Part shown: in pieces, positions 483 to 57,932 of the stretch | Layout of the letters: every line of letters starts with the position of its first letter | Numbering within the stretch: position 1 is the stretch's first letter | Made by a program: the position numbers and the translations under genes | Notes under the pieces: model-generated | What the model was told of the DNA's origin: nothing | The model's database searches: none | Seen by the model: only the letters and a program-made list of their open reading frames with translations | Assembly: GCF_003086795.1 (NCBI RefSeq) | Contig: NZ_CP026003.1 | Coordinates: 19,430 to 83,429, forward strand | Source of the DNA: Stenotrophomonas sp. SAU14A_NAIMI4_5 | GTDB lineage: Bacteria; Pseudomonadota; Gammaproteobacteria; Xanthomonadales; Xanthomonadaceae | Direction: 5' to 3' | Length of the DNA: 64,000 bases

Positions 483-1127
483 TTACCGGCGCGAGCCTTC
501 CAACTGCGTGGTCAGCAGCCGGGTCAGGTTCCGGCGCGCGAAATACCCCTGCAGCTGCGCGGCCTTGATGGTCCGTGCCTTCAGCTTCGGCGCGCCATCG
601 TCCCCGTATTCAATGCGGTAGCAGCGCGATGCGCCGCAGAGCTCGGCCTGGCTGGCGGTGACGATCACCACGGTGATCTCCAGGCTGGTGAAGGCGTTGC
701 CGGTCTTGATATCCGGGTTCTCGGTACTGGCGCGGTCGATGAGGGTGCGGAACCGGCCCAGGTCGCGCTCGCCGCCGCTGCTGAGCGGGCCGACATTGGT
801 GGCACGGCGGATGTCGTCGTCCTCGCTGGGCGTGGCCTTGCTCCAGTGCTCGGTGCGCTCGGGGATGACCGCACGTACGACCGTGCCATCGGGCTCGATG
901 AGGTCGATCACCACGTCCAGCAGGTACACCGGCTCCAGGCCGAGGTTGGTCACGAAACAGTGCGCATCCAGGTGCCGGCCGGCGCCGGAGGTGATGAGGA
1001 TGGAGGGCCGCTGCTGGCGGCGGTAGCTGCGCAGGAAGAAGTTGAGGTAGACCACCCAGATCAGGGCGGTCACGCAGGTCATCACCGCGGTCAGCAGCGG
1101 TGCGAAATGGAGCAGGTTCTGCAGCAT
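483..1127 (-). CDS. Hypothetical inner-membrane-anchored protein
   Basis: A 214-residue protein with a single clear hydrophobic segment near the N-terminus (about residues 10-33, ...AVMTCVTALIWVVYLNFFL) followed by a basic loop and a soluble domain of about 175 residues rich in beta-type sequence. It is therefore probably anchored once in the inner membrane. The start at 1127 has a CCGAGG-like site just upstream. I do not recognise the family. It is flanked on both sides by REP arrays and has no obvious operon partner. Confidence 0.65.
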   Translation of the reverse strand: MLQNLLHFAPLLTAVMTCVTALIWVVYLNFFLRSYRRQQRPSILITSGAGRHLDAHCFVTNLGLEPVYLLDVVIDLIEPDGTVVRAVIPERTEHWSKATPSEDDDIRRATNVGPLSSGGERDLGRFRTLIDRASTENPDIKTGNAFTSLEITVVIVTASQAELCGASRCYRIEYGDDGAPKLKARTIKAAQLQGYFARRNLTRLLTTQLEGSRR

Positions 1128-1211
1128 CCTCGGCGGAACTCATGGGCGTGGGGTGGCCCATGGTCGCGGTTGCGGTGCTTGTGGGTTGTGAAGTGGTCGG
1201 CGTCCACGTGT

Positions 1212-1345
1212 CGCGCGGCCATCCACGCGTGGCGTGGATCTACCGGCGTGCCCCTCGTTGCGCGGGCATCCACGCATGGCGTGGATCTACCGGCGTGCTC
1301 CTCGTTGCGCGGGCATCCACGCATGGAGTGGATCTACAAACGCGC
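1212..1345. repeat. Three tandem REP units, CATCCACGCATGGCGTGGATC type
   Basis: Three copies spaced about 48 nt apart, each with the palindromic core ATCCACGCATGGCGTGGAT (the first has GCGTGG in the middle, the third GCATGGAGTGG). The intervening sequence GGCGTGCTCCTCGTTGCGCG is also nearly repeated. A further single copy occurs at 12290-12318. They fill the gap between the convergent ends of the membrane protein and DUF1330 genes. Confidence 0.8.
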
Positions 1346-1347
1346 GG

Positions 1348-1629
1348 TCAGCCTTCGACGATCACCACGCTGGCGATGCAGTGCCCTTCGCGCCTGGCCC
1401 TGGCCTGCTGGTACTCCGGCGAGGCATAGCAGGCCTGCGCGGTTTCCAGATCTGCAAATTCAATCACCACGTGGCGGTCAGGCAGGTCGCCTTCCAGCAC
1501 CACCGAACGGCCACCACGGGCCAGGAACTTCGCGCCGTACTTTGCGAATGCCGCAGGCGCCAGCGCGGTGTAGCCGCTGTACTTCTCCGCATCCAGCACC
1601 TGAACGTGGGCGATCCAATAGGCGGCCAT
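1348..1629 (-). CDS. DUF1330 family protein
   Basis: A 93-residue protein with the compact alpha+beta ferredoxin-like pattern of DUF1330: an N-terminal AYWIAHVQVLD strand, a central YGAKFLARGG turn, the strand VVIEFADLETAQACYASPEYQ and a short C-terminal strand. The family is widespread and mostly uncharacterised. The ATG at 1629 overlaps the TGA of the upstream GntR gene (TGATG), with AGGAGC about 10 nt upstream inside that gene, so the two are translationally coupled. Being paired with the repressor of the neighbouring catabolic operon, it may have an accessory role in that pathway; this is inference. Confidence 0.8.
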   Translation of the reverse strand: MAAYWIAHVQVLDAEKYSGYTALAPAAFAKYGAKFLARGGRSVVLEGDLPDRHVVIEFADLETAQACYASPEYQQARARREGHCIASVVIVEG

Positions 1630-2300
1630 CACTTCTGCTCCTGTTCGAGCAAGGCATGGGCAATCGCCTCGGCCTCACCAATGTGTTCGGCCACGCGCTG
1701 CCGCGCCAGCGCTTCGTCGCGCTGCACGCAGATGGCATCGCAGATGGCCTTGATGCGTTCAAAACCGGTCTTCTCGCGGTCCACGTGGGTCAGGGTCATC
1801 GCGCGCAGGCGGCTGATGCGGCCGTTGAGGCGCTGCACGATTTCCCATGCGATGTGGTTGTTGCCGGCACGGAAAATGGTTTCGTACAGGGTGGACGAGG
1901 CTTCCAGCACCGGCGCGATATCCGGCGTGCCATACGAGGTGCGCAGGGTTTCCAGTGCCTGCTGGATCTGCGCGGCGGTCTCGTCGGTGAGGTTGCGCAC
2001 GCAGTCGGCCACCGCGCTCTGTTCCAGCACGAGGCGGATGCGGTAGACCTGGCTGGCCACGTCCCAGTTGAGCACGGCCACGATCGGGCCCTTCTGCGGC
2101 AGCACTTCCACCAGGCCTTCGGCCTGCAGGTAGCGGATCACTTCACGCACCACCGTGCGGCTGACCCCCAGCTGCTCGCACAGGGTGCGTTCGACCAGGC
2201 GCGCACCGGACGGGAAGTAGCCGGTGATGATCGCGTTGCGCAGCTTTTCCAGGCACTTCTCGCGCAGGGTGACCGGCGAGTGGTCGATTCTCAGGTTCAT
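1629..2300 (-). CDS. GntR-family (FCD subfamily) transcriptional regulator
   Basis: A 223-residue regulator. The N-terminal winged helix (about residues 10-80) shows the GntR pattern GARLVERTLCEQLGVSR followed by VVREVIRYLQAEGLVEV; the remainder is an all-helical FCD ligand-binding domain with conserved Arg/Glu/His-rich helices. It starts at the ATG at 2300; an upstream in-frame extension lacks coding character. It is divergent from the operon beginning at 2585, and the 284-bp gap holds TGGTATACCA-type palindromes, so it most likely represses that operon and itself and is relieved by a pathway metabolite. Such ligands are often carboxylic acids. Confidence 0.88.
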   Translation of the reverse strand: MNLRIDHSPVTLREKCLEKLRNAIITGYFPSGARLVERTLCEQLGVSRTVVREVIRYLQAEGLVEVLPQKGPIVAVLNWDVASQVYRIRLVLEQSAVADCVRNLTDETAAQIQQALETLRTSYGTPDIAPVLEASSTLYETIFRAGNNHIAWEIVQRLNGRISRLRAMTLTHVDREKTGFERIKAICDAICVQRDEALARQRVAEHIGEAEAIAHALLEQEQK

Positions 2301-2523
2301 CGTGTTTCGCAATCCCTTTAGGTGGCAGCCACGCCATGGCGGGCGCGCTGCCGGTAGTTCGTGTACGTCCACGCTATTCAACCACGGATCATGAATAGCG
2401 CACCCCGGCAGCCCGCTCCAACCCGACCTCACCACCCCCGTCTGCGACTTTCGTCGCGGGCTAAAAATGAATGCGCATAGACATATTGCAGGGCGTTTTT
2501 GGAGGGTGTACTGTCGCTGCCAA

Positions 2524-2550
2524 TGGTATACCAACATACCGTACACCAAT
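2524..2550. promoter_or_regulatory. Putative GntR operator pair upstream of the catabolic operon
   Basis: A perfect 10-bp palindrome TGGTATACCA (2524-2533) is followed at once by a second, imperfect site read on the other strand as TTGGTGTACGGTATG (2535-2550). TGGTATACCA-like sequences are typical of FCD-type GntR operators. The pair lies 35-60 nt before the start codon at 2585, where it could block transcription. I could not assign convincing -35 and -10 boxes. Confidence 0.55.
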
Positions 2551-2584
2551 ATTGTGACCGCCAGCGGCGGCGAGGAAGGACCAG

Positions 2585-3187
2585 ATGAGCCTGATACGAA
2601 AGACCGTTCTCCACGTGGAGACCGTGCATGTGGACGGGGGCCGTGACGCGGCCAGGCCGCTGAAGATGGTGGCCGCCGCCGCCGTGATCCGTAACCCGTG
2701 GGCCGGCCGTGGCTACGTCGAGGACCTGTCGCCGGAGATCCGGGCACTGGGCCCGCAACTGAGCCAGCACCTGACCGACCTGATCCTGGGTGAGGTCGGC
2801 TCGGGCGATGCGGTGGAGGCCTTCGGCAAGAGCGCGGTGGTCGGCCTGGCCGGTGAGCTGGAACACGCCTCGGCGCTGATCCACACCCTGCACTTCGGCA
2901 ACATCTACCGCAACGCGGTGCGCGCCAAGTCCTACCTGGCCTTCACCAATACCCGCGGCCCGGCCAATGCGCCGATCGTGCTGCCGATGATGGACAAGAA
3001 CGACGAAGGCCGCCGTTCGCACTACCTGACCGTGCAGTTCGCCATCGCCGATGCCCCGGCCGCCGACGAACTGGTGGTCGTGCTGGGCGCGGCCACCGCC
3101 GGCCGCCCGCACCACCGCATCGGTGACCGCTACCAGGACCTGAAAGAGCTCGGCCATGACGTCTCGAACCCTGCCGCTGTCAAGTAA
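2585..3187 (+). CDS. Amino acid synthesis family protein (DUF1185, PF06684)
   Basis: A 200-residue protein matching the DUF1185 family by its conserved blocks: IRKTVLHVETVHVDGG at the start, AAAAVIRNPWAGRGYVEDL, GKSAVVGLAGELEHASALIH and the RSHYLTVQFAIADAPAADE / GRPHHRIGDRYQD end. Structures of this family show a chorismate-mutase-like trimer fold, and the family has been suggested to act in amino-acid metabolism. It is the first gene of the operon, with AGGAAGG before the ATG. RidA/RutC proteins have a related fold, so it may do the imine/enamine or tautomer step of the pathway; that is inference. Confidence 0.85.
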   Translation: MSLIRKTVLHVETVHVDGGRDAARPLKMVAAAAVIRNPWAGRGYVEDLSPEIRALGPQLSQHLTDLILGEVGSGDAVEAFGKSAVVGLAGELEHASALIHTLHFGNIYRNAVRAKSYLAFTNTRGPANAPIVLPMMDKNDEGRRSHYLTVQFAIADAPAADELVVVLGAATAGRPHHRIGDRYQDLKELGHDVSNPAAVK

Positions 3188-3950
3188 CCAACAGGCGCAC
3201 TGCCTGGACCAGGGTGCGGGAGAGCCCCTGGTCCTGATCCACGGTGTCGGCATGCAGGCCGCCGCCTGGGGTCCGCAGATCGCCGCCTTCGCCCAGCAGT
3301 ACCGGGTCATCGCGGTGGACATGCCCGGCCACGGCCAGAGCACGCGCCTGCCGGGCGAACCCGCGCTGACCGACTACGTGGCGTGGATGGTGGAGTTCAT
3401 CAGTGCCCTGCAGCTGGGCCCGGTCAACCTGGCCGGGCACTCGATGGGCGCCCTGATCGCCGCCGGCGTGGCCATCGAGCGGCCGGACCTGGTGCGCCGC
3501 CTCGCGGTCATCAATGGTGTCCACCTGCGTACCGATGCCGCCCGCCACGCGGTGGTGACCCGTTCGGATGAACTGGCCACTGGCCGGATCGACGTGGAAA
3601 CCCCGTTGCAGCGCTGGTTCGACGAGGGCACCACGCAAGCCTCGCTGGTGGAGGACGTGCGCTCATGGCTGCAGAACGTGGATATGCAGGGCTATGCCGA
3701 TGCCTACCGCGCCTTCGCCCGTGGTGATGAGACCTACGCAGAGCGCTGGTCGGAAGTGGGCTGCCCTGCCTTGGCGCTTACCGGCGCCGAGGATGCCAAT
3801 TCGACGCCGGCCATGGCCCTGTCGATGGCAGCGCTGGCCCGCAACGGCAAGGCCGTGGTCATCCCGCACGAACGCCACATGGTCAACCTGACCGCCCCCG
3901 CCAAGGTCAACGCGGCGCTGGCGGAATGGCTGGGCACCGCAACGAACTAG
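3156..3950 (+). CDS. Alpha/beta-fold hydrolase
   Basis: A 264-residue alpha/beta hydrolase of the 3-oxoadipate enol-lactonase/RutD-like type. Visible features are the oxyanion segment LIHGVGM, the nucleophile elbow GHSMGAL (Ser near residue 97), an acidic residue in LTGAEDANSTP and the catalytic His in HERHMVN near the end. It probably hydrolyses a ring-cleavage product such as an amide, carbamate or enol ester. The ATG lies 32 nt inside the end of the DUF1185 gene, so the two are translationally coupled. Confidence 0.85.
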   Translation: MTSRTLPLSSNQQAHCLDQGAGEPLVLIHGVGMQAAAWGPQIAAFAQQYRVIAVDMPGHGQSTRLPGEPALTDYVAWMVEFISALQLGPVNLAGHSMGALIAAGVAIERPDLVRRLAVINGVHLRTDAARHAVVTRSDELATGRIDVETPLQRWFDEGTTQASLVEDVRSWLQNVDMQGYADAYRAFARGDETYAERWSEVGCPALALTGAEDANSTPAMALSMAALARNGKAVVIPHERHMVNLTAPAKVNAALAEWLGTATN

Positions 3951-3986
3951 CTGCACTCATTCCAGGCCATCGGTTGGAGGGAACAT

Positions 3987-4904
3987 ATGGCTATCGATCC
4001 AAAAGAGCTGAGGGAAGCCTTCGGCTCGTTCATGACCGGCGTCACCATCGTGACGTCCACCACCGCAGACGGTGAACCGATTGGTTTCACCGCGAACTCG
4101 TTCGCTTCGGTGTCGCTCGATCCGCCGCTGTTGCTGGTCAGCATCGCCAACGCATCGGGCAACTACGACAACTTCGTGGGCGCCAAGCGCTTTGCCATCA
4201 ACATTCTGTCCGAGGCACAGACCGACGCATCGAATACCTTTGCCCGGCGCAATCCGGATCGGTTTGCCGCGGTGTCCTGGACCAACAGCGCTCTCGGAAG
4301 CCCGCTCCTGGACGAGGTCAGTGCGTGGTTCGACTGCACCATGCACACGGTGGTGGAGGCGGGTGACCATGCCGTCCTGATCGGGCAGGTGGAGCACTTC
4401 CATACGGCCGGCCTGCCCGGGCTGGGCTACTACCGCGGTGGCTACTTCACCCCCGCCAAGGTGGCCACCGAGGTCATGACCGATACCAAGGGTCTGATCA
4501 GCGCGATCATCGCCCACGACGACAGCCTGCTGCTGGTGCCAGCGCCGGAAGGCGGCTGGGCCCTGCCCACTGTCGAGATCGGCAACGAGGGTGCGGACAA
4601 CGCATTGGAACGCATCTTTGCCCGGCATCAGCCTGGTGCCTCGCCGAGCTTCGTGTACTCCGTCTATACGGACACCGACACTCACCGGCAGTTCGTCACG
4701 TTCCTGTGCAGCACCCCGGAAGCCACGGCCCAGCAGGGCGAGTACATCCCGCTTCGGGATGTACCAGGGCTGGCCATTCCGGACGCTGCGGTCAAGAGCA
4801 TGCTGCAGCGTTACTGCCGCGAGAGCGCGCTGAAGACCTACGGCACCTATTACGGCAACCACACCTGCGGTGTGGTCAAAGAACTGATTGCAAGGGAGAG
4901 TTGA
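3987..4904 (+). CDS. Flavin reductase with C-terminal Nudix-like extension
   Basis: A 305-residue protein. Residues 1-165 form the flavin reductase (FMN-binding split barrel) domain of two-component monooxygenases: FGSFMTGVTIVTS, GFTANSFASVSLDPPLLLVS, NYDNFVGAKRFAINIL and YYRGGYF. The usual enzyme stops there. Here about 140 further residues follow; the LLLVPAPEGGWALPTVEIG segment looks like the start of a Nudix fold, but the catalytic Nudix box (REXXEEXG) is absent, so this part may bind a nucleotide or sense a ligand. It would supply reduced FMN to the next gene product, whose start is 1 nt after this stop. Confidence 0.88.
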   Translation: MAIDPKELREAFGSFMTGVTIVTSTTADGEPIGFTANSFASVSLDPPLLLVSIANASGNYDNFVGAKRFAINILSEAQTDASNTFARRNPDRFAAVSWTNSALGSPLLDEVSAWFDCTMHTVVEAGDHAVLIGQVEHFHTAGLPGLGYYRGGYFTPAKVATEVMTDTKGLISAIIAHDDSLLLVPAPEGGWALPTVEIGNEGADNALERIFARHQPGASPSFVYSVYTDTDTHRQFVTFLCSTPEATAQQGEYIPLRDVPGLAIPDAAVKSMLQRYCRESALKTYGTYYGNHTCGVVKELIARES

Positions 4905-4905
4905 A

Positions 4906-5949
4906 ATGCGGTTTTCTTTGTTCATCCATATGGAACGCGTCTCGGACCAGCAGTCGCAGAAGCAGCTGTACGACGAGATGATCGAGCTGTGCCAGATCGC
5001 CGATGAGGGTGGCATGCATGCCATCTGGACCGGCGAGCACCACGGCATGAACTTCACCATCGCGCCGAACCCGCTGCTCAACCTCGCCGACATCGCCAAC
5101 AAGACCAAGAACGTGCGCCTGGGCACCGGCACCGTGGTGGCCCCGTTCTGGCACCCGATCAAGCTGGCCGGCGAAGCGGCGATGACCGACATCATCTCCA
5201 ACGGCCGCCTCGACCTGGGCATCGCCCGCGGCGCCTACTCGTTCGAATACGAGCGCATGGTGCCGGGGATGGACGCCTGGGGCGCCGGCCAGCGCATGCG
5301 TGAGCTGATTCCGGCCATCAAGGGCCTGTGGAAGGGTGACTACGCCCACGAGGGCGAATTCTGGTCCTTCCCCAGCACCACCTCGGCACCGTTGCCGCTG
5401 CAGCAGCCGCACCCGCCGATCTGGGTGGCCGCGCGCGATCCCAACAGCCACGAATTCGCGGTGCAGAACGGCTGCAACGTGCAGGTGACCCCGCTGCACT
5501 TCGGCGACGACGAAGTGCAGAAGCTGATCGGCCACTTCAACGCGGCCTGCGAGAAGTTCAGCGAGGTGCCGCGTCCGAAGATCATGCTGCTGCGCCACAC
5601 CTACGTGGCCGACTCGGAAGCCGACGCACAGGTCGCCGCCGACGAGATCAACGTGTTCTACAACTACTTCGGCGCATGGTTCAAGAACGAGCGCCCGATC
5701 AGCCAGGGCCTGATCGCCAAGCTGAGCGATGAGGAGATTGCCGCCCACCCGATGTATTCGGCACAGGCGATGCGCAGCAACAACGTGATCGGTCCGGCCG
5801 AGGAAGTCATCGCCCGCCTTAAGGCCTACGAGGCCATGGGCTTTGACGAGTACTCGTTCTGGATCGACACCGGCATGTCCTTCGAGCGCAAGAAGGCCTC
5901 GCTGTTGCGTATGATCAACGACGTCATGCCCGCCTTCGCCCAGGAATGA
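4906..5949 (+). CDS. LLM-class (luciferase-like) flavin-dependent monooxygenase
   Basis: A 347-residue bacterial-luciferase-type TIM barrel: FSLFIHMER start, GGMHAIWTGEHHGMNF, RLGTGTVVAPFWHPIKLAGEAAM and a C-terminal GPAEEVIARLKAYEAMGFDEY. These enzymes use FMNH2 and O2 to oxygenate or cleave small substrates; RutA and pyridine monooxygenases belong to the superfamily. The ATG at 4906 is preceded by AGGGAGAG inside the end of the flavin reductase gene, which marks the pair as a two-component system. I regard it as the probable first, ring-attacking enzyme of the pathway; the substrate is unknown. Confidence 0.9.
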   Translation: MRFSLFIHMERVSDQQSQKQLYDEMIELCQIADEGGMHAIWTGEHHGMNFTIAPNPLLNLADIANKTKNVRLGTGTVVAPFWHPIKLAGEAAMTDIISNGRLDLGIARGAYSFEYERMVPGMDAWGAGQRMRELIPAIKGLWKGDYAHEGEFWSFPSTTSAPLPLQQPHPPIWVAARDPNSHEFAVQNGCNVQVTPLHFGDDEVQKLIGHFNAACEKFSEVPRPKIMLLRHTYVADSEADAQVAADEINVFYNYFGAWFKNERPISQGLIAKLSDEEIAAHPMYSAQAMRSNNVIGPAEEVIARLKAYEAMGFDEYSFWIDTGMSFERKKASLLRMINDVMPAFAQE

Positions 5950-7421
5950 CCATGGACAGCCCGTTCGAGCTCTACATCGACGGCCGTTTCGAAGCCGGTG
6001 CCGGTACGTTTGAAAGCATCGACCCGGCCACCGGCACGCCGTGGGCGACCATGCCCGAGGCGCGCCGCGAGCAGGTGGAACGCGCGGTCGAGGCCGCCGA
6101 CCGTGCCCTGCACGATCCGGCCTGGGCCACGCTGACGGCTTCCCAGCGCGGCAAGCTGCTGTACCGGCTGGCCGACCTGCTGGAGCAGGCGGCGCCGGAA
6201 CTGGCCGCCATCGAGACCCGCGACACCGGCAAGATCATCCGCGAAACCCGCGGCCAGATCGCCTATATCGCCGAGTACTACCGCTATTACGCCGGCATCG
6301 CCGACAAGATCGAAGGCAGCTTCGTGCCGGTGGACAAGCCGGACATGCAGGTCTGGATCAGCCGCGAGCCGATCGGCGTGGTCGCCGCCATCGTGCCCTG
6401 GAACAGCCAGCTGTTCCTGTCGGCGGTGAAGCTGGGCCCGGCCCTGGCCGCCGGCTGCACCGTGGTGCTGAAGGCGTCCGAGGAAGCGCCCGGCCCGCTG
6501 CTGGCGTTTGCCCGGCTGCTGCACCAGGCCGGCTTCCCGCCGGGCGTGGTCAACGTCATCACCGGCTTCGGCCCCGAGTGTGGCGCCGTGCTGAGCAGCC
6601 ATCCGAAGGTCGCCCAGGTGGCCTTCACCGGTGGCCCGGCCACGGCGCGCCACATCGTGGCCAACACCACCGGGAATCTGGCCCGCGTCTCGCTGGAGCT
6701 GGGTGGCAAATCGCCGTTCATCGTGTTCGACGATGCCGACCTCGACAGCGCGGTGAACGCGCAGCTGGCCGCGATCTTCGCCGCCAGCGGGCAGAGCTGC
6801 GTGGCCGGTTCGCGCCTGCTGGTGCAGGCCGGCATCAAGGATGCGTTCCTGGCCCGGCTGCTGGAAAAGGTGGCGGCCATCCGCATCGGCCCGCCCGATG
6901 ATGCGGCCACCGAGTTCGGCCCGCTGTGCACCGAGCGCCAGCGCCAGAACATCGAAGCGGTGCTGGCCGCGTCCGTCGCCCAGGGTGCCCGCGTGCTCTG
7001 CGGTGGTATCCGCAGCGAGCGCGCCGGCATCTACTTCCCGCCCACCATCGTCGACTGCAGCGCTTCGCCGCAGGCGGACAGCATCACCACCGAACTGTTC
7101 GGCCCGGTGCTGTCGGTGGATGTGTTCGACGATGAGGCGCAGGCGATCCACAAGGCCAACAGCACCGCGTTCGGTCTGGCCGCCGGCATCTTCACCCGCA
7201 ACCTGACGCGCGCGCACCGGCTGAGCCGGGCGATCCGTTCGGGCGTGGTCTGGATCAACACCTACCGCGCGATTTCACCGCTGGCTCCGTTCGGTGGATT
7301 CGGTCTTTCGGGCCATGGACGGGAAGGCGGCGCCGCGGCCGCCCTGGAATACACCACGACCAAGACGGTGTGGCTGCGTACGTCCGATGTCCCCATGGAT
7401 GACCCGTTCGTGATGCGCTAG
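5946..7421 (+). CDS. NAD(P)-dependent aldehyde dehydrogenase
   Basis: A 491-residue class 3-type ALDH. The catalytic Glu is in LELGGKSPF and the nucleophilic Cys in SGQSCVAGSR; IVPWN, the cofactor segment FTGGPATARHIV and the terminal SPLAPFGGFGLSGHGREGG are standard. The start at 5946 overlaps the monooxygenase stop as ATGA; an ATG two codons later is an alternative. It would oxidise an aldehyde released after ring opening or hydrolysis. A second ALDH in the same operon (9065) suggests two successive aldehyde intermediates or a branched pathway. Confidence 0.92.
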   Translation: MTMDSPFELYIDGRFEAGAGTFESIDPATGTPWATMPEARREQVERAVEAADRALHDPAWATLTASQRGKLLYRLADLLEQAAPELAAIETRDTGKIIRETRGQIAYIAEYYRYYAGIADKIEGSFVPVDKPDMQVWISREPIGVVAAIVPWNSQLFLSAVKLGPALAAGCTVVLKASEEAPGPLLAFARLLHQAGFPPGVVNVITGFGPECGAVLSSHPKVAQVAFTGGPATARHIVANTTGNLARVSLELGGKSPFIVFDDADLDSAVNAQLAAIFAASGQSCVAGSRLLVQAGIKDAFLARLLEKVAAIRIGPPDDAATEFGPLCTERQRQNIEAVLAASVAQGARVLCGGIRSERAGIYFPPTIVDCSASPQADSITTELFGPVLSVDVFDDEAQAIHKANSTAFGLAAGIFTRNLTRAHRLSRAIRSGVVWINTYRAISPLAPFGGFGLSGHGREGGAAAALEYTTTKTVWLRTSDVPMDDPFVMR

Positions 7422-7476
7422 GCCCCGCGCCCGGCACCCACACCCGTTCCCGCCTCCGGCCCGCGCGCCCTCACCT

Positions 7477-7488
7477 CCCCCCCCCCCC
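7477..7488. repeat. 12-nt poly-C tract in the intergenic region before the permease
   Basis: An uninterrupted run of 12 C lies in the 195-bp gap between the aldehyde dehydrogenase and permease genes, about 130 nt upstream of the permease start. Such runs slip during replication; its position allows an effect on promoter or leader spacing but not on a reading frame. The rest of the gap is C-rich with no recognised element. Confidence 0.7.
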
Positions 7489-7616
7489 TCGATGGGCGAG
7501 GTCGCGCAGCCCGGTTCCATGACCGGATCGTTCCTGCGCCCCCTGCACAGCCGGGCGCGCGCGACCGATCCCGACGCACGCCTGCCGGGCGACCGGCTGG
7601 CTCAGGAAATCCGCCC

Positions 7617-9008
7617 ATGAGCAATGCAAACAAGCAGGATGGCGCTTTCTCCATCGAGGGCCACTCCATCGGCTACATCCCCGAACAGGAGCGCCACGGC
7701 AACCCCCGTGACCTGTTCACCCTGTGGTTCTGTACCAACATCGCCCCGTTGGCGGTGATCACCGGCGCGATGTCGGTGCTGACGTTCAAGCTGGATATCG
7801 TCAGCGCGCTTCTGGCCATCGTCACCGGCCACATGTTCGGCGCGGCCATCCTCGCCCTTGCCTCGGCGCAAGGCCCGCTGGCCGGCATTCCGCAGATGAT
7901 CCAGAGCCGCGCGCAGTTCGGCCGCTTCGGCTCGCTGCTGGTGGTCGGCTTCACCACGCTGATCTACCTGGGCTACTTCATCTCCAACATCATCCTGTCC
8001 GGCAAGACCCTGCACACGGTCATTCCGGCGGTGCCGCTGCCGCTGGCCACCATCATCGGCGCCGCGCTGGCCACGGCCATCGGCATCATCGGCTACAACT
8101 TCATCCACGGCTTCAACCGCATCGGCATCTGGTTCATGGGCGGTGCGCTGGCCATCGGCCTGGCCATCATGCTGCCGCGCCTGGGCGCCGATGCCTTCAG
8201 CCACGGCAGCTTCTCGCCGGCCGGCTGGTTCTCGATGTTCGGCATCTGCTCGGTCTGGCAGATCAGCTTCTCGCCGTACACCTCGGATTACTCGCGTGCC
8301 CTGCCACGCAGCGTGGGCGTGTTCCGCCCCTTCATCTACACCTACCTGGGCTCCGCGCTGGGTCCGATCCTGGCCTTCACCTTCGGCATGCTGGCGGTGA
8401 GCGGTGGCGGGCAGACCGATGCGATGGAAGCGGTGCGCCTGCACACCGGCTGGTTCGGCTACGTGCTGATGGTGCTGTTCCTGGTCAACATCATCGGCCA
8501 CAACGCGATGAACCTGTACGGCGCGGTGCTGTCCTGCGTGACCTCCCTGCAGACCTTCTCCCCGTCGTGGACGCCGGCGCGGCTGGCCCGCATCACCCTG
8601 TCGTGCGCGCTGCTGGTGGCCTCTACGCTGTGTGCGCTGTGGGCCTCGGCCAACTTCATCGAGATCTTCATCAACGCGGTGTTCGCGCTGCTGTTCATCC
8701 TTGCGCCGTGGGTGTCGATCAACCTGCTGGACTTCTACGTGGTCAACGGCGGGCGCTACGACATCGCCTCGATCTTCGCCCGCGATGGCGGCCGCTACGG
8801 CCTGTTCAACGGCCGCGCCCTGCTGGCCTACGCACTGGGTGCGATCGCCCAGGTGCCGTTCATCAGCAACGCCTTCTTCCAGGGTTCGTGGGCGCAGCTG
8901 TTCGGTGGCGTCGATGTGTCCTGGGTGATCGGCCTGCTGGTCAGCGCCCTCGCCTACTACCTGCTGGCCGTGCGTGCGCCCCAGGGCGCCAGCGTCGCGG
9001 CCACCTGA
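7617..9008 (+). CDS. NCS1-family purine/cytosine-type permease
   Basis: A 463-residue polytopic membrane protein of the nucleobase:cation symporter-1 family. It shows about 12 hydrophobic segments, the conserved GAIPQ-like motif in LAGIPQMIQSRAQFG, the Asn-rich helix YNFIHGFNRIGIWFMGG, and the SFSPYTSDYSRALP loop typical of NCS1. Family members import cytosine, allantoin, hydantoins, hydroxymethylpyrimidine and similar N-heterocycles with Na+ or H+. Its place inside this operon is the best clue that the pathway substrate is an N-heterocycle or a related ureide. The ATG at 7617 follows the AGGAAATCCGCCC leader. Confidence 0.92.
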   Translation: MSNANKQDGAFSIEGHSIGYIPEQERHGNPRDLFTLWFCTNIAPLAVITGAMSVLTFKLDIVSALLAIVTGHMFGAAILALASAQGPLAGIPQMIQSRAQFGRFGSLLVVGFTTLIYLGYFISNIILSGKTLHTVIPAVPLPLATIIGAALATAIGIIGYNFIHGFNRIGIWFMGGALAIGLAIMLPRLGADAFSHGSFSPAGWFSMFGICSVWQISFSPYTSDYSRALPRSVGVFRPFIYTYLGSALGPILAFTFGMLAVSGGGQTDAMEAVRLHTGWFGYVLMVLFLVNIIGHNAMNLYGAVLSCVTSLQTFSPSWTPARLARITLSCALLVASTLCALWASANFIEIFINAVFALLFILAPWVSINLLDFYVVNGGRYDIASIFARDGGRYGLFNGRALLAYALGAIAQVPFISNAFFQGSWAQLFGGVDVSWVIGLLVSALAYYLLAVRAPQGASVAAT

Positions 9009-9064
9009 TTCCCTCCCGGCGCGGGCACCGGCTGCCCGCGCCCGACACGAACCACGAGGTATGC

Positions 9065-10522
9065 ATGAACGTTGAAACGTCCGCGCTGTTCCACCAGCGT
9101 GCGCTGGTGGCTGGGCAATGGATCGCCGCCGACAGCGGTGAAGTCGATGAGATCCTCGACCCGGCCACCCAGCAGGTGCTGGGTACCGTGCCGCGCCTGG
9201 GCCGCGCCGAAACCGAGCGCGCGATCGCCGCGGCCTCGGCCGGCTGGGCCGACTGGCGGGCCACCACCGCCGAGCACCGCTCGCGCGTGCTGAAGGCCTG
9301 GCACCGCCTTCTGATCGACAACACCGAAACCCTTGCCCGCCTGCTGACCGCCGAACAGGGCAAGCCGCTGGCCGAAGCACGTGCGGAGATCGTCTATGCC
9401 GCCAGCTTCGTCGAATGGTTCGCCGAGGAAGCCAAGCGGGTCTACGGTGACATCATCCCCAGTCCCTACCCCGATGCGCGGATCATGGTGACCCGCCAGC
9501 CGATCGGCATCGTCGCCGCGGTGACGCCGTGGAATTTCCCGGCGGCGATGATCACCCGCAAGGTGGCCCCGGCACTGGCGGCCGGCTGCCCGTGCATCGT
9601 CAAGCCTGCGGCGGAAACCCCGTTCACCGCCATGGCGATGGCCGACCTCGCCCTGCAGGCCGGTGTGCCGGCGGCGATGTTCAGCGTGGTGACCGGCCAT
9701 GCGGCGTCCATCGGCGATGCGTTCTTCGACAGCGAGGAGGTGCGCAAATTTACCTTCACCGGCTCCACGCCGGTCGGTCGCATGCTGTACGGCAAGGCCG
9801 CGAAGACGGTGAAGAAGGTCTCGCTGGAACTGGGCGGCAACGCGCCCTTCATCGTGTTCGACGACGCCGACCTGGACGCTGCCGTCGATGGCGCGATGCT
9901 GGCCAAGTTCCGCAACGCCGGCCAGACCTGCGTCTGCGTCAACCGGTTCCTCGTGCACGACGCCGTCCACGATGCCTTCGTCGAGGCGCTGCGTGCACGC
10001 ATCGCCGCGTTGAAGGTGGGTGCGGGCGACGCCGAGGGCACCCAGATCGGCCCGCTGATCAACACCGCCGCCGTGGCCAAGGTGCAGTCGCACGTGGATG
10101 ACGCGGTGGCCAAGGGCGGTCGGGTGCTGCTGGGCGGCGACGTCGGCGCGCAGGGCGAGTGCTTCTACCTGCCCACCCTGGTGGTCGATGCGACCGCCGA
10201 GATGCAGGTGGCGACCGATGAAACCTTCGGCCCGCTGGCCGCCGTGTTCCGTTTCCACGACGAAGCCGAGGCCGTGCGCCTGGCCAATGCCACCGATTCC
10301 GGGCTGGCCGCCTACTGCTACACCCGCGACCTCGGCCGCGCCTGGCGCATGAGCGAGCGGCTGGACTACGGCATGGTCGGCATCAACCGCGCCGCCATCT
10401 CCAATGAAGTGGCGCCGTTCGGCGGCATCAAGCAGTCCGGGCTGGGGCGTGAAGGTTCGCGCTACGGCATCGAGGATTTCCTGGACATCAAGTACACCCT
10501 GTTCGGAGGCATCAGCGCATGA
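9065..10522 (+). CDS. NAD(P)-dependent succinate-semialdehyde dehydrogenase-type enzyme
   Basis: A 485-residue ALDH closest in pattern to GabD-type succinate-semialdehyde dehydrogenases: VTPWNFPAAMITRKVAPALAAG, catalytic Glu in LELGGNAPF, catalytic Cys in AGQTCVCVNRF (with the second Cys typical of GabD), and EVAPFGGIKQSGLGREGSRYGIEDFLDIKY. The ATG at 9065 has ACGAGGT just upstream. If the assignment holds, the pathway delivers a C4 semialdehyde into the TCA cycle, as in bacterial pyridine and GABA catabolism. Glutarate- or malonate-semialdehyde specificity cannot be excluded by eye. Confidence 0.9.
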   Translation: MNVETSALFHQRALVAGQWIAADSGEVDEILDPATQQVLGTVPRLGRAETERAIAAASAGWADWRATTAEHRSRVLKAWHRLLIDNTETLARLLTAEQGKPLAEARAEIVYAASFVEWFAEEAKRVYGDIIPSPYPDARIMVTRQPIGIVAAVTPWNFPAAMITRKVAPALAAGCPCIVKPAAETPFTAMAMADLALQAGVPAAMFSVVTGHAASIGDAFFDSEEVRKFTFTGSTPVGRMLYGKAAKTVKKVSLELGGNAPFIVFDDADLDAAVDGAMLAKFRNAGQTCVCVNRFLVHDAVHDAFVEALRARIAALKVGAGDAEGTQIGPLINTAAVAKVQSHVDDAVAKGGRVLLGGDVGAQGECFYLPTLVVDATAEMQVATDETFGPLAAVFRFHDEAEAVRLANATDSGLAAYCYTRDLGRAWRMSERLDYGMVGINRAAISNEVAPFGGIKQSGLGREGSRYGIEDFLDIKYTLFGGISA

Positions 10523-10905
10523 GCGATTCCCGCTTCGAAAAAGGCCTGCAGATCCGCCGCCACGTGCTGGGCGATGAGTACGTGGACCGCGCCCTGGCCC
10601 AGGCCGATGCCTTCAGCCAGCCGCTGCAGGAACTGGTGACCGAGTACTGCTGGGGCACCGTCTGGGCACGCAGCGATCTCGCCCTGGCCGAACGCAGCCT
10701 GATCAACCTGGCGATGATTTCCGCGTTGAATCGTCCGCACGAGCTGAAGATCCACGTCAAGGGCGCGCTGCGCAACGGCGTCAGCCGCGAGAAGATCCGC
10801 GAGGTGCTGCTGCAGGTGGCTATCTACTGCGGCGTGCCTGCCTCCGTGGACAGCTTCCGCGTGGCCCGCGAGGCCATCGCCGAGTTCGACGCCGCCGAGA
10901 CGTAA
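10519..10905 (+). CDS. Carboxymuconolactone decarboxylase family protein
   Basis: A 128-residue all-helical protein with the CMD pattern: FSQPLQELVTEYCWGTVWAR, LAERSLINLAMISALNRPHELKIHVKGALRNGVSREKIREVLLQVAIYCGVPA. It lacks the AhpD CxxC pair, so it resembles 4-carboxymuconolactone decarboxylase (PcaC) rather than a peroxidase. It could decarboxylate or tautomerise a cyclic or unsaturated acid intermediate. The start overlaps the preceding stop as ATGA, which ties it firmly to the operon. It is the last gene before a 115-nt gap. Confidence 0.9.
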   Translation: MSDSRFEKGLQIRRHVLGDEYVDRALAQADAFSQPLQELVTEYCWGTVWARSDLALAERSLINLAMISALNRPHELKIHVKGALRNGVSREKIREVLLQVAIYCGVPASVDSFRVAREAIAEFDAAET

Positions 10906-11020
10906 GCCCTTTCAGCAGCCATCGGTGCGCCCTGCCCGTGCCCCGCGGCGCGGTGGGCGCCCTGTTGCCCGATGGCGTGCCGATTGCCCCTTTCCTGCTG
11001 TTCCTGCCTGGGAACCTGCC

Positions 11021-12283
11021 ATGCATCCTGCGTTCCGTTTCGCCCGTTCGCCTCTTGTCCTGGCCCTGTGCCTGGCGTGTGCCTCGCTTGCACATGCCGA
11101 AGCCCCCGCCGAAGAGGTCACTACGCCTGCCGACGCCCCTGCCGCAACGCCGGCACCGGCGCACACCGGCTGGACACTTGGCGGCGTCCTGCGCGGCCGC
11201 TGGGATGTGCGCTTCAACGACGCGCACGGTGATGGCAGCCGCCGCACTTCCAACCACCTGTCCTTCGACACGCTCATCCTCAAGGCCGACTATGACGGCC
11301 AGGATTACTTCGCCTCGGCGCAGTACCGGTTCTATGGCGGCAGCGTGCTGTACTCGCGTGCCGGCGGCTACCGCAACTACCCCGGCGAGGTGAGCTTCCC
11401 GCTGCAGGCCTATGCCGGCCGCCGCTTTGCCAATGGCGATCGCGTGGCCATCGGCCTGCAGCCAGTGGTGCTGGATGAGCAGTACTGGGGCGCGCAGGTG
11501 CTGGGCAGCATCGGCTTTGTGGTGGGCCTGGAAGAGGTCTATGCACCGGGCATCACCTACCGTCACGACGGCGATGGCTACCGCCTGGCCGCAGGCTACT
11601 ACCCCATCTCTACGCCCGACGGCAAAGGCATCAGTCGCGATGGCGCACGCTATTCCACTGCTTTCGTGCAGGGCGACAGTTACGTGCCGAATGGCACCAG
11701 CACCTCCGAGCGCGACCTGGTGGCGGCCACCGTCGACTGGGATCTGCTGAAGCATGACGACGTCACGGTGTCTGCCGCGGTATCCGGTCTGTACTCGCGC
11801 CTGCAGGACGAGAGCGGCACGCCGCAGGGCGACGGCACGCGGCGCGCTCTCGCAGCCAGCGTGAAGGTCAGCAATGGCACCTGGCGCGGCAAGGTCCTGG
11901 TCGCACGGCAGGACATCAGCCTGCCGGCTTCGCGCGACACCCACGTCATCACCGTGGGCGGCTTCGATGCGTCCTACAACATCGCCACCAAGGGCACGGT
12001 TGTGTTCGCCGAAGTGGGACGGCCGCTGACGGTCGCCGGGCAACCGTTCGACCTGTATGCCAGCCTGTCACGTTTCATCAAGGACGAGGCCGACTTCACG
12101 GACAGCCAACGGTTGACCCTTGGCGCTGCATGGAGCCATGGCCGCCTGCGCGTTTCCAGTGAACTGCTGGTCGGCCGCAACGATCCGTTCGTGGGTGCCG
12201 GGCAATACATCAGCGGCGCTGCCGAGGGCGGCGACGACCGCTACAAGACGTCGCTGTTCACGGTTGTCGGGTACCGGTTCTAG
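11021..12283 (+). CDS. Outer-membrane porin-like protein
   Basis: A 420-residue secreted protein. It has a signal peptide (MHPAFRFARSPLVLALCLACASLAHA, cleavage about residue 26), an Ala/Pro/Glu linker, then repeated amphipathic beta strands and a C-terminal Phe (VVGYRF) as expected of a beta-barrel recognised by BAM. It resembles porins that accompany catabolic operons; I cannot name the family. It lies 115 nt after the CMD-like gene in the same direction and probably gives the pathway substrate passage through the outer membrane, either by read-through or from its own promoter. Confidence 0.8.
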   Translation: MHPAFRFARSPLVLALCLACASLAHAEAPAEEVTTPADAPAATPAPAHTGWTLGGVLRGRWDVRFNDAHGDGSRRTSNHLSFDTLILKADYDGQDYFASAQYRFYGGSVLYSRAGGYRNYPGEVSFPLQAYAGRRFANGDRVAIGLQPVVLDEQYWGAQVLGSIGFVVGLEEVYAPGITYRHDGDGYRLAAGYYPISTPDGKGISRDGARYSTAFVQGDSYVPNGTSTSERDLVAATVDWDLLKHDDVTVSAAVSGLYSRLQDESGTPQGDGTRRALAASVKVSNGTWRGKVLVARQDISLPASRDTHVITVGGFDASYNIATKGTVVFAEVGRPLTVAGQPFDLYASLSRFIKDEADFTDSQRLTLGAAWSHGRLRVSSELLVGRNDPFVGAGQYISGAAEGGDDRYKTSLFTVVGYRF

Positions 12284-12289
12284 GGCACG

Positions 12290-12318
12290 CGGGCATCCAC
12301 GCATGGCGTGGATCTACA
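12290..12318. repeat. REP unit, CATCCACGCATGGCGTGGATC type
   Basis: A single copy of the same palindrome as at 1212-1345 (core ATCCACGCATGGCGTGGAT), 7 nt after the porin stop codon. It may act as an attenuating or mRNA-stabilising hairpin at the porin 3' end. Confidence 0.75.
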
Positions 12319-12392
12319 GGGCGACCGGGTTGCTGGTGCCAATGCTACCGCCTACCATCGACGCGGACGAGGACCCGACAAGGACGCCAGGG

Positions 12393-12857
12393 ATGCCGGG
12401 CAGAAGCAGATCCCCGCAGGGCCAAGCCACCTTGCGCGCATCGATCATCGGCGCGCTGTGCTGCACGATGGCCGCCTGCGGCCTGGTGATGGACAGCCGT
12501 TTCGACACACTGCAGGCCGCACGTGAGCAGGACATGGTGCGCAAGGGCTGGGTACCCGAATGGGTGCCGCCGGATGCGACCGATCTGCGTGAGGTGCATG
12601 ACCTGGATTCGAACGTGAGCGAACTGGCCTTCCGCAAGCCTGTTGCCACGCAGATCCAGCTTCCCGCGGACTGCCGGAAGACGAGGTATACGTCCAGCGC
12701 CCGCGCGTCCATCCAGCGCACCTGGTGGCCGCCGGAGCCGTTGCTGCAGATGTCCTACACCGTCTTCACCTGTGGGCCGGACTACGGCCGCGCCACCTTC
12801 GCGGCCATCAGCAGCTCCGGCGATCAGGTGCTGTTCTGGCGCACCTACCAGGATTGA
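12393..12857 (+). CDS. Small putative lipoprotein, member of a locally repeated family
   Basis: A 154-residue protein with a basic N-terminus, a hydrophobic stretch and a lipobox-like end at about residue 29 (CTMAAC followed by Gly). The mature part carries the segment RKGWVPEWVPPDATDLREVH. An equivalent segment occurs in the protein at 14158-14634 (GKSKWLPEWLPKDAVDIREAH) and in a decayed copy near 13755. The family function is not known to me. The ATG at 12393 is preceded by AGGACGCCAGGG. Members may be immunity or stress lipoproteins beside the Rhs region; that is speculation. Confidence 0.65.
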   Translation: MPGRSRSPQGQATLRASIIGALCCTMAACGLVMDSRFDTLQAAREQDMVRKGWVPEWVPPDATDLREVHDLDSNVSELAFRKPVATQIQLPADCRKTRYTSSARASIQRTWWPPEPLLQMSYTVFTCGPDYGRATFAAISSSGDQVLFWRTYQD

Positions 12858-13011
12858 TGCGCGCGCCGTCATCCCGACCCTTCGCCAGGTCGTCACGTTG
12901 CACGTGCCCTGCGTAGAGCGGAGCCATGCCCCGCCGCCATGCCCTACAATCCCTTGTTGCGGCGGAACACTGCACCTACCATCGGACCGCCCTTTCCCGA
13001 TCCCCGCCCCG

Positions 13012-13638
13012 ATGACGACCTACGCCGAACTCAACGCCGCCCAGCTGGCCAACCACGCCCTCAACATCTTCATCGCCGAGGGCCGCCACATCGAAGGCGC
13101 GCGCGTGATCTACCGAGCGCTGCAGCTCGACCCGCATCATCCCGATGCGCTGCGCAGCCTCAGCGATTTCCACGCAAACTCCGGCACCGAAGCCTTCTCG
13201 GCCGCCACCATGGAATACGCCCTGTCCGGCGCGATCGATCTGAGTGCGGAGGAACGCCAGAAGCTGGAAGCGCTGCATTTCCTCGACATCTGGACCTGGG
13301 GCTTCGCCCGTCACAATTCCGGCGAGGCACAGCTGGGTGCCGAGGCCTTCAAGAACCGTGACGACTTCGAGGTCGACCACGCCGCCTACGCGGCCTTCCT
13401 CGGCACCATCGTGGAGCCGGCCGGTTCACTGCAGGCTGCCTTCGAGGCCGCGCACCGCCTGTCGGGCCTGATGGCGGGCTTCCTGCAGCACGGCGGCAAT
13501 GACGATCCGGACCTGGACGATGTCCTGCGTGGCGAAGGTTTCGTTGAAACCGCCGAGTATCCGCAGTGGCTGCAGTCGTCCACCGACGACGTTGACGCAC
13601 TGGACAAGGCCATCCAGGAGCAGCGCCAGAAGGGGTGA
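13012..13638 (+). CDS. Hypothetical TPR-like helical protein
   Basis: A 208-residue soluble, strongly helical protein. The N-terminal 60 residues read as a TPR-like pair (NHALNIFIAEGRHIEGARVIYRAL, LDPHHPDALRSLSDFHAN). The rest is acidic, with WTWGFARHNSGEAQLGAEAF and a C-terminal acidic tail. No signal peptide is visible, so it is probably cytoplasmic. I do not recognise a named family. It has its own 154-nt leader and no operon partner; a REP element follows its stop. Confidence 0.65.
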   Translation: MTTYAELNAAQLANHALNIFIAEGRHIEGARVIYRALQLDPHHPDALRSLSDFHANSGTEAFSAATMEYALSGAIDLSAEERQKLEALHFLDIWTWGFARHNSGEAQLGAEAFKNRDDFEVDHAAYAAFLGTIVEPAGSLQAAFEAAHRLSGLMAGFLQHGGNDDPDLDDVLRGEGFVETAEYPQWLQSSTDDVDALDKAIQEQRQKG

Positions 13639-13670
13639 TCCGGCGCGTCGCCGGGCATGTATCAGCCCCG

Positions 13671-13722
13671 GTAGAGTCGAGCTTGCTCGATTGCTTTTTC
13701 AACAGCAGTCGAGCAGGCGCGA
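13671..13722. repeat. Degenerate REP doublet, AGTCGAGCTTGCTCGA type
   Basis: Begins GTAGAGTCGAGCTTGCTCGA and, after a T-rich loop, has the inverted arm CAGTCGAGCAGGCGCGA, in which the second half no longer matches. It lies 33 nt after the preceding stop codon. Confidence 0.65.
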
Positions 13723-13754
13723 TGCCCGCTTTACGCTGACGGCCCGTGGCTTGG

Positions 13755-14157: not shown

Positions 14158-14634
14158 TCAGTACTTCACCCTACTGTAGACGAGGCCCAGCTCCTCATCG
14201 TGCATGATCCAGCGACCAGCAGATCTCTCTGGACACGAATAGAACACCCCAGCATGGTCAGATGCACGCGACCAGGAATTACGGGCGAACTGAGGAAATC
14301 GCCGCATGGTTGGCGCGTCGGGCATCTCTGCCCTGCCTGTTGGCCTGCAATCTTCGGGCAACGTCAGCGTCCCACTGGTCGGACGGAAGATCAACCAAGA
14401 CTCATTGGTGTCCATGTCATGCGCCTCGCGTATGTCGACAGCATCTTTGGGCAACCACTCAGGCAACCACTTCGATTTGCCGATTGCATCCCTAGAGATG
14501 GCGTGGTTACGGTCAGCATACTCAGTGCTTGCAACTTCCATGCAGCCAGAGACTGTAAATGCCAACACAATGACCGGCAGAAATCTATGTGCGTTTCTCG
14601 AAAGCTTGCCAGTCAACGACGTGGGAAATTTCAT
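14158..14634 (-). CDS. Small putative lipoprotein, second intact member of the repeated family
   Basis: A 158-residue protein read from ATG 14634 (an ATG at 14670 is possible). It has a basic start, the hydrophobic stretch FLPVIVLAFTVSGC and a lipobox Cys at about residue 31. The mature region contains KWLPEWLPKDAVDIREAHDMDTNESWLIF, homologous to the protein at 12393. Only moderate identity remains, so the duplication is old or the copies were acquired separately. It is inverted relative to the first copy and lies at the edge of the Rhs-associated island. Confidence 0.65.
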   Translation of the reverse strand: MKFPTSLTGKLSRNAHRFLPVIVLAFTVSGCMEVASTEYADRNHAISRDAIGKSKWLPEWLPKDAVDIREAHDMDTNESWLIFRPTSGTLTLPEDCRPTGRAEMPDAPTMRRFPQFARNSWSRASDHAGVFYSCPERSAGRWIMHDEELGLVYSRVKY

Positions 14635-14765
14635 TCGGTGCGATAGCCCCGCATAGTTGTTTTGGAACATCTCAGCGATTCAGTCAAGCAAGCTCGATGC
14701 AACTGCTGGGCCTCCAGCCCCGGAGCGTAACGATAGCCGGTACCAGTCGGCGTTGGGGCCGATAG

Positions 14766-15077
14766 TCAATCGCTACCCGGCTTCTTTCCGGTCAGAGTAA
14801 CCAGAAGTATCAGGACAAGCGCCACGCATACAGCAACATGGAACAAGAGGATGGGCCGGATGGCGAGATAGAGCTCGCCGACTCCAAGGGAATAGGACCC
14901 GCGGCCGGAATGCGAGCCCAGGGCTCTAGCAATGATCTGGATCCATACCAGCGCAGCTATCTGAACAGCGATGATTCCAAACGCGGGAAAGAGCCTCCTG
15001 GTAGGAGTTCTGCCGACCATTGCGAAGTACGTAAGCACCGAGAGAACCACATAGAATGCAACCAACACCCACGCCAT
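14766..15077 (-). CDS. Small membrane protein, three or four TM segments
   Basis: A 103-residue very hydrophobic protein beginning MAWVLVAFYVVLSVLTYFAM, with further hydrophobic segments around residues 30-48 and 70-95 and a short basic tail (GKKPGSD). The start is fixed by GGAGGATAG 7 nt before the ATG. It begins 4 nt after the stop of the small frame at 15082. Position downstream of Rhs tips is what one expects of an immunity protein against a membrane-acting toxin, but no direct evidence exists. Confidence 0.6.
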   Translation of the reverse strand: MAWVLVAFYVVLSVLTYFAMVGRTPTRRLFPAFGIIAVQIAALVWIQIIARALGSHSGRGSYSLGVGELYLAIRPILLFHVAVCVALVLILLVTLTGKKPGSD

Positions 15078-15081
15078 CAAC

Positions 15082-15294
15082 CTATCCTCCGCAGCCGCAG
15101 CCCTTGGGCCGGTTCCCCAGCATTTCATGCATTGCCCTTATTGCACCGGTATCGATGTCAGCTCGGCTATCCGCATCCCAGTTGCAGGGCCGCCCTCGGA
15201 CCACGTCTTCGACGTCACACACCATGACGGCGAGGCTCGTCTCTCCCCAGCCAACGGGTACCCACACCAGCATCAGGAAGATCTCCGGGCGCAC
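15082..15294 (-). CDS. Small frame resembling an Rhs tip remnant
   Basis: An open frame of 70 codons from a GTG, with no clear ribosome-binding site; the frame stays open upstream until a TAG near 15350. It ends GNRPKGCGCGG, and the Rhs tip ending at 16805 ends similarly (RRGCGCE). It sits immediately before the small membrane-protein gene. I read it as either a real small gene or the tail of a displaced Rhs toxin whose partner is the membrane protein. Confidence that it is expressed is low. Confidence 0.35.
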   Translation of the reverse strand: MRPEIFLMLVWVPVGWGETSLAVMVCDVEDVVRGRPCNWDADSRADIDTGAIRAMHEMLGNRPKGCGCGG

Positions 15295-32342: not shown

Positions 32343-32401
32343 AGTCGAGCTTGCTCGACTGCTCGTGCGGGTAACCGCCAGTCGAGCAAGCTCGACTCTA
32401 C
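32339..32401. repeat. REP doublet, AGTCGAGCTTGCTCGACT type
   Basis: Inverted copies of GTAGAGTCGAGCTTGCTCGA with a short loop (CGTGCGGGTAACCGC), giving a 24-bp arm hairpin. The TAG near its left end is the stop codon of the histidine kinase. Confidence 0.9.
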
Positions 32402-32413
32402 GTCTGGCAGGAC

Positions 32414-40213: not shown

Positions 40214-40241
40214 GCCGTCATTGTACGGCGCTCCGGGCTGC

Positions 40242-40305
40242 GTAGAGTCGAGCTTGCTCGACTGCTCTGTTCCGTGCGGCTGCAGTCGAGCAAGCTCGAC
40301 TCTAC
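40242..40305. repeat. REP doublet, AGTCGAGCTTGCTCGACT type
   Basis: Inverted arms AGTCGAGCTTGCTCGACT and CAGTCGAGCAAGCTCGACTC around a short loop (GCTCTGTTCCGTGCGGCTG), 6 nt before the stop of the minus-strand DUF779 gene. Confidence 0.9.
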
Positions 40306-40311
40306 AGGGGC

Positions 40312-45608: not shown

Positions 45609-45670
45609 GTAGTGGTCGAGCTTGCTCGATTGCTGTTCGCCAGAAGCCAGTCGAGCAAGCTCGACTCTAC
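45609..45670. repeat. REP doublet, AGTCGAGCTTGCTCGA type
   Basis: GTAGTGGTCGAGCTTGCTCG and the inverted AGTCGAGCAAGCTCGACTCT enclose a short loop. It sits between the convergent ends of the activator and eda genes and probably serves both transcripts. Confidence 0.88.
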
Positions 45671-45715
45671 GACGCAACGGCCGTCGCGCAGGGGCGACGG
45701 CCACCCGCGCGCAGC

Positions 45716-57710: not shown

Positions 57711-57932
57711 TGGGAGGCACGGACGCAGCAACGCCCTGGCGTTGAACAACGTGGCCGACGTACTGCGTTGAGGAGGCGCACGGATGCGGCAACGCCCGGC
57801 GTTCGTAGAGTCGAGCTTGCTCGACTGCTCTTCGCATGGCACCAACAGCAGTCGAGCAAGCTCGACTCTACGAAGCGGCGCAGCGCCCAGCCGGTTGAAC
57901 AACGTGGCCGACGTGCCGCGTTGATGGGAGGC
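57679..57932. repeat. Triplicated 3' end of the LamG gene
   Basis: The last codons and stop of the gene (GTTGAACAACGTGGCCGACG followed by TGCCGCGTTGATGGGAGGC) recur at 57741-57778 and again at 57892-57932 with few changes; the original is at 57679-57717. A REP doublet lies between the second and third copies. Confidence 0.85.
57805..57871. repeat. REP doublet, AGTCGAGCTTGCTCGACT type
   Basis: GTAGAGTCGAGCTTGCTCGA and its inverted copy around the loop CTCTTCGCATGGCACCAAC. It is set between copies of the duplicated LamG gene end. Confidence 0.9.

Follow-up and report, generated by a model that had tools for sequence, protein, structure and literature searches.

Gene organization of the locus

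The window analysed here is a 64,000-nucleotide stretch of Stenotrophomonas sp. SAU14A_NAIMI4_5, and the subject is an operon near its left end that very probably serves the catabolism of trigonelline (N-methylnicotinate). Gene families were called with Pfam and NCBIfam-type models on the window proteins. The plus strand carries, from left to right, genes for a DUF1185 (AA_synth) protein (2585-3187; PF06684, E 5.4e-67), an alpha/beta hydrolase (3156-3950), a flavin reductase with a C-terminal extension (3987-4904; Flavin_Reduct, E 5.1e-40), a luciferase-type monooxygenase (4906-5949; Bac_luciferase), an aldehyde dehydrogenase (ALDH; 5946-7421; Aldedh), an NCS1-type permease (7617-9008; Transp_cyt_pur), a second, GabD-like Aldedh protein of the succinate-semialdehyde dehydrogenase (SSADH) type (9065-10522), a PcaC-like CMD protein (10519-10905; TIGR02425) and a porin-like protein (11021-12283). 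On the minus strand lie the gene for a GntR/FCD regulator (from 1629 to an ATG at about 2300; Pfam GntR and FCD) and, overlapping it by 4 bases, a gene for a small DUF1330 protein (1348-1632; PF07045, E 1.6e-34), the start of which is either GTG 1632 or ATG 1629. A strandless palindrome, TGGTATACCA, is located at 2524-2533 between the two arms.

The distances between neighbouring genes, counted from the DUF1185 gene rightward, are -32, 36, 1, -4, 195, 56, -4 and 115 bases, and the description of genes overlapping or nearly touching through much of the operon, given in an earlier reading made from the sequence only (hereafter the sequence-only reading), is thus a fair one. Apart from the porin, the gene families that it had named, and the GntR regulator that it had placed opposite the operon, were likewise borne out by the model matches. 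The DUF1330 gene beside gntR had been missed, and the left edge of the unit lies beyond the limits then set, out to that gene. Alignment with relatives places the start of the monooxygenase at ATG 4906, not at TTG 4888.

Correspondence with the trigonelline operon

Relatives of the monooxygenase were sought by a scan of genome contigs, and the best 80 of the 237 found were kept as loci L002-L081. All locus counts below refer to these 80, in which a gene was scored as present when the match covered at least half of the query. The locus of Acinetobacter baylyi (L024) carries all ten genes of the window, counting the regulator and the nine genes of the plus strand, together with the DUF1330 neighbour (61% identity), the divergent orientation of the regulator and the operator motif. 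By direct alignment, 298 of the 346 residues of the monooxygenase are identical (86%), making it the orthologue of TgnB. Counterparts of TgnF (DUF1185, 82%), TgnA (reductase, 57%), TgnC (ALDH, 73%) and TgnE (SSADH, 68%) are all found in the same colinear cluster, along with the NCS1 permease (62%), the CMD protein (75%, the last gene there), the regulator (55%) and the hydrolase (59%). The order differs only for the porin-like gene, which in A. baylyi lies between the permease and SSADH genes and here stands at the end; its product is also the most distant, at 25% identity, while the other nine range from 55 to 86%. Xanthomonas cucurbitae (L002) also carries all ten genes, colinear at 66-92% identity (66% for the porin-like protein and 89% for CMD). 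Gene order is thus kept in A. baylyi, in X. cucurbitae and, for the core, in the majority of the 80 loci, so the grouping cannot be due to chance.

Database names point in the same direction. Among the 120 homologues listed, three proteins, all from Acinetobacter (P0003, P0009 and P0015), carry the NCBI name 'flavin-dependent trigonelline monooxygenase oxygenase component', and the name given by JGI to P0119 is likewise trigonelline monooxygenase oxygenase component. The hydrolase is 59% identical, at 99% coverage, to the A. baylyi protein P0195, named '(E)-2-((N-methylformamido)methylene)succinate hydrolase', and is taken as the TgnD orthologue. In a tree of the monooxygenase built from 25 hand-picked rows including RutA and SsuD, the window protein pairs with Xanthomonas (89/88) and then with Acinetobacter (85/89), both values being below strong support, and the 11 rows formed by the window, Xanthomonas, Acinetobacter and Burkholderia-group proteins are grouped with strong support (97/96).

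The tgn operon of A. baylyi was reportedly described by Perchat and colleagues in 2018 (doi 10.1073/pnas.1722368115). TgnC is reported to yield a succinate derivative and TgnD to release formate, methylamine, CO2 and succinate semialdehyde; in the present data, the database name of the hydrolase and the gene families agree with this chemistry. The letters were given to the genes by family and are putative, except for TgnF, the name of which is in print (PMC7913881). Excerpts of published work give TgnB, the flavin-dependent trigonelline monooxygenase, as UniProt Q6F9F6 (PMC11354265), and ascribe the opening of the trigonelline ring to TgnA/TgnB (PMC8269262). In the literature search for the tgn A, C, D, E, F and R gene names, PMC7913881 was the only one among the matches listed to concern this pathway, the rest being other uses of the letters; no trigonelline appeared among the matches listed for the search including Stenotrophomonas and Xanthomonas.

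Several points weigh against the assignment. The A. baylyi locus compared is that of strain DSM 14961, not ADP1. Neither the proteins of the window nor those of A. baylyi matched any NCBIfam model for a trigonelline enzyme. Beyond Acinetobacter the NCBI names stay general, being 'LLM class flavin-dependent oxidoreductase' in Xanthomonas and 'alpha/beta hydrolase' or 'amino acid synthesis family protein' for the Stenotrophomonas homologues. Identity to A. baylyi falls to 57-59% for the hydrolase and the reductase and is lowest for the porin-like protein, and many clusters of relatives are without the permease, SSADH and CMD genes. With these points taken into account, we still regard it as highly probable that this is a tgn operon. 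The statement that no described pathway has this exact set has therefore to be given up: orthology to A. baylyi identifies these genes with the published trigonelline operon, for which degradation of a named compound has already been demonstrated. The proposal of an N-heterocycle as the likely substrate, and of a pyridine-like route ending in succinate semialdehyde, was right under the tgn identity. The pathway itself is already described, and what is new is one more occurrence, in a genus mostly without it.

Model scores for individual proteins were as follows. On the GabD model, the SSADH-type protein reached 685.6 bits (cut-off 828); on the SSADH model TIGR01780, its 645.8 bits fell just short of the cut-off of 646.35, and the A. 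baylyi counterpart reached 682.6 bits there. The CMD protein scored 158.5 bits on TIGR02425 (cut-off 155.7), and the A. baylyi protein, at 148.6 bits, fell below the cut-off. The porin-like protein, the label of which comes from the sequence-only reading, gave no Pfam match even at E 10, and the same was true of its A. baylyi counterpart. Residues 3-300 of the 305 of the flavin reductase match the solved chain 3rh7, and two solved structures already exist for DUF1185. No Rfam family was detected in the window at gathering scores.

Comparison with the Rut and PyrA systems

The sequence-only reading had set the monooxygenase, reductase, hydrolase, permease and DUF1185 protein one by one against components of the Rut pathway. 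A Rut-like pyrimidine or ureide pathway would share the general kinds of parts, namely a two-component luciferase-type monooxygenase and an alpha/beta hydrolase, and weak matches do exist: against the rut locus of Escherichia coli (L082), the reductase gave a match to RutF of 32% identity that covers half of its length, and the hydrolase one to RutD at 25% (E 1e-5). These are at most distant superfamily matches. The scores on the corresponding models were far below the cut-offs, at 67.1 bits for the hydrolase on RutD (cut-off 238.5) and 84.7 bits for the reductase on RutF (cut-off 254.75). The monooxygenase is 24% identical to E. coli RutA over 164 residues, the DUF1185 protein has no similarity to E. 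coli RutC, and comparison of the permease with the rut locus was negative at E 1e-5. No RutA over the cut-off was found in the genome, the best match to the RutA model being 67.2 bits against a cut-off of 498.3. In the tree, RutA falls far outside the group of the window with 99/99 support; both RutA and SsuD sit on very long branches, of 7 to 10 changes per column, so that their exact place means little beyond 'far'. The one-by-one correspondence does not hold, and membership in the Rut family of pathways was rejected, as sequence comparison gave no orthologue of the RutA, RutC or RutG type. We consider a pyrimidine or ureide pathway of this kind extremely improbable.

Degradation of pyridine by a PyrA-type system would lead to the same end product, succinate semialdehyde. 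With a monooxygenase 86% identical to that of A. baylyi, there is little scope for such a system, and its probability is taken to be very low.

Regulator and putative operator

The sequence TGGTATACCA lies 51 bases ahead of tgnF and is the sole exact copy in the window; no copy was found in 100 shuffles (mean 0.00). The palindrome was then scored within 260 bases upstream of the DUF1185 gene in the 78 loci, out of 80, that have this gene on the strand of the monooxygenase. The two loci outside this set are L080, the contig of which begins at the hydrolase gene, and L076, in which neither DUF1185 nor ALDH was matched. With no more than one mismatch, TGGTATACCA was detected upstream of tgnF in all 78 loci, and in 58 of them the copy was exact. 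The background in the same loci was 8 of 1560 shuffled stretches and 22 of 1521 random stretches. As the upstream regions scored are also those from which the motif was chosen, and as they come from related loci, these counts indicate conservation, not independent discovery. A 28-base version of the palindrome, allowing three mismatches, occurs once in the genome. From its position and conservation, TGGTATACCA is a putative operator of the GntR regulator. The divergent gntR gene is presumably that of the known TgnR, and its product is named here putative TgnR.

Predicted pathway

Trigonelline is a compound of plants and coffee. In the pathway predicted for this organism, the porin-like protein and the NCS1 permease, the presumed importer, would bring trigonelline into the cell. 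Reduced flavin would be passed from TgnA to TgnB, which would open the pyridinium ring with O2. TgnC would then convert the ring-opened aldehyde to (E)-2-((N-methylformamido)methylene)succinate, from which TgnD is expected to release formate, methylamine, CO2 and succinate semialdehyde by hydrolysis, and oxidation of succinate semialdehyde to succinate would be carried out by TgnE. The DUF1185 protein TgnF may stimulate this last step. Such stimulation of TgnE-dependent succinate semialdehyde oxidation is reported for A. baylyi ADP1 in the excerpt of PMC7913881, which also states that no such effect was demonstrable for the DUF1185-family protein HcdD, a homologue of TgnF. The GntR regulator is predicted to repress the divergent promoters at TGGTATACCA, and would probably be released by trigonelline or an intermediate of the pathway.

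With this assignment, an 'uncharacterised heterocycle operon' becomes a named, testable trait, growth on trigonelline, which serves plants as an alkaloid and osmolyte; this trait is predicted for a few strains of the genus Stenotrophomonas and for some Xanthomonas. The comparison also flags genes that bear only general names in public annotation, and two sister modules with testable substrates.

Relatives on plasmids and sister modules

At E 1e-40, a relative was found in 326 plasmid records, 225 of which are from Rhizobium or Sinorhizobium; no relative was confirmed in viral contigs. On pSymA of Sinorhizobium meliloti (L085), nodulation genes on one side and nifB on the other enclose a cluster with a monooxygenase at 73% identity. 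This cluster resembles that of the window in having GntR, DUF1185, hydrolase, reductase, monooxygenase, ALDH and SSADH genes, but differs in carrying ABC transporter genes and a NIPSNAP gene, in having its regulator on the same strand, and in giving no match to NCS1, DUF1330 or CMD.

More distant modules were found beside, or apart from, clusters of the trigonelline type. In four Caballeronia loci (L038, L042, L046 and L048), a second cluster is arranged divergently to the trigonelline-type one, with a monooxygenase at 60-61%, DUF1185 at 64-65% and ALDH at 66-67%. These paralogous clusters and that of Paraburkholderia (L088), at about 60-62%, have their own DUF1185, hydrolase, reductase and ALDH genes. 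A group at about 40-42% was examined in three records, from Rhizobium (L087), Thalassospira (L107) and Agrobacterium (L108). All three hold genes for a reductase, an ALDH, a monooxygenase, a hydrolase, CMD and DUF1185, and ABC or betaine transport genes lie nearby; a regulator of the PucR/GAF type is found in L087.

Since these sister groups share a similar parts list, the module evidently diversifies. The operon of the window might then be a closely related form whose main substrate is a different N-substituted pyridinium (another N-alkyl nicotinate, for instance), trigonelline being converted only to a minor extent. With 86% identity, and with neighbours and operator shared, the window protein however falls inside the trigonelline group, and we hold such a variant to be very unlikely. 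For homarine, the excerpt of PMC8269262 argues that opening by TgnA/TgnB is unlikely owing to steric hindrance, and no homarine gene cluster was noted in titles or abstract openings among the matches listed in the homarine literature.

DUF1330, CMD and gaps in the gene pattern

The assignment to trigonelline being kept, the cluster holds nothing unusual beyond the conserved genes of one or two putative helpers, DUF1330 and CMD. The DUF1330 gene is present in the divergent arm of 71 of the 78 loci, A. baylyi among them, and was not found in the remaining seven (L009, L038, L042, L046, L048, L049 and L066). In the cluster of S. meliloti, as in that of Paraburkholderia at 62%, the ALDH gene is directly followed by a NIPSNAP gene, and one is also present in the Agrobacterium cluster L108; in L038, the trigonelline-type cluster and a NIPSNAP match are about 10 kb apart. 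NIPSNAP is another small dimeric alpha/beta-barrel family like DUF1330.

The CMD protein shows 71-76% identity in Acinetobacter loci and, where a Burkholderia-group locus has the gene, 44-47%. Of the 23 loci from Alphaproteobacteria, seven carry CMD (46-54%) and in 16 it was not found, while the NCS1 permease is present in one (L060). Given this patchy presence, CMD and the permease do not count among the strict core parts. A flavin reductase on the strand of the cluster was not found in six of the 80 loci (L009, L037, L038, L042, L046 and L048), and in L037 and L046 the same holds for the hydrolase.

These observations raise the possibility, which we put forward tentatively and at somewhat less than even chance, that the list of tgn genes is not closed: DUF1330 (or NIPSNAP) and the PcaC-like CMD may be working parts, and the 60-62% and 40-42% sister modules may be undescribed ring-opening pathways that use the same kit on other N-substituted heterocycles. 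The helper proteins would then, for example, handle an unstable ring-opened lactone or aldehyde, or decarboxylate formylsuccinate. Among the papers listed that name DUF1330, none appears to concern the trigonelline pathway. The role of DUF1330 is offered as a lead, with no claim of its being unpublished.

Distribution in the genus and insertion site

At E 1e-60, the monooxygenase was detected in two of the 91 genomes of the genus, that of the window itself and G066. Alignment of the block 1311-12330 with G066 gave 93% identity, and both flanks match there too. In G067, from another species of the genus, the flanks (window 512-1173 and 12942-13660) are separated by 227 bases, whereas 11,768 bases (1174-12941) separate them in the window, and therefore the unit came or went as a block relative to G067. 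Matches to the flanks also occur in other species. Another flank probe, at 14158-15128, fell in variable genes.

Short repeats were also noted. One at 1212-1244, close to the left edge of the unit, is matched throughout the genus, and those at 13671-13723, 32338-32404, 40230-40306, 45615-45673 and 57798-57886 match, in both orientations, repeats in the G067 stretch.

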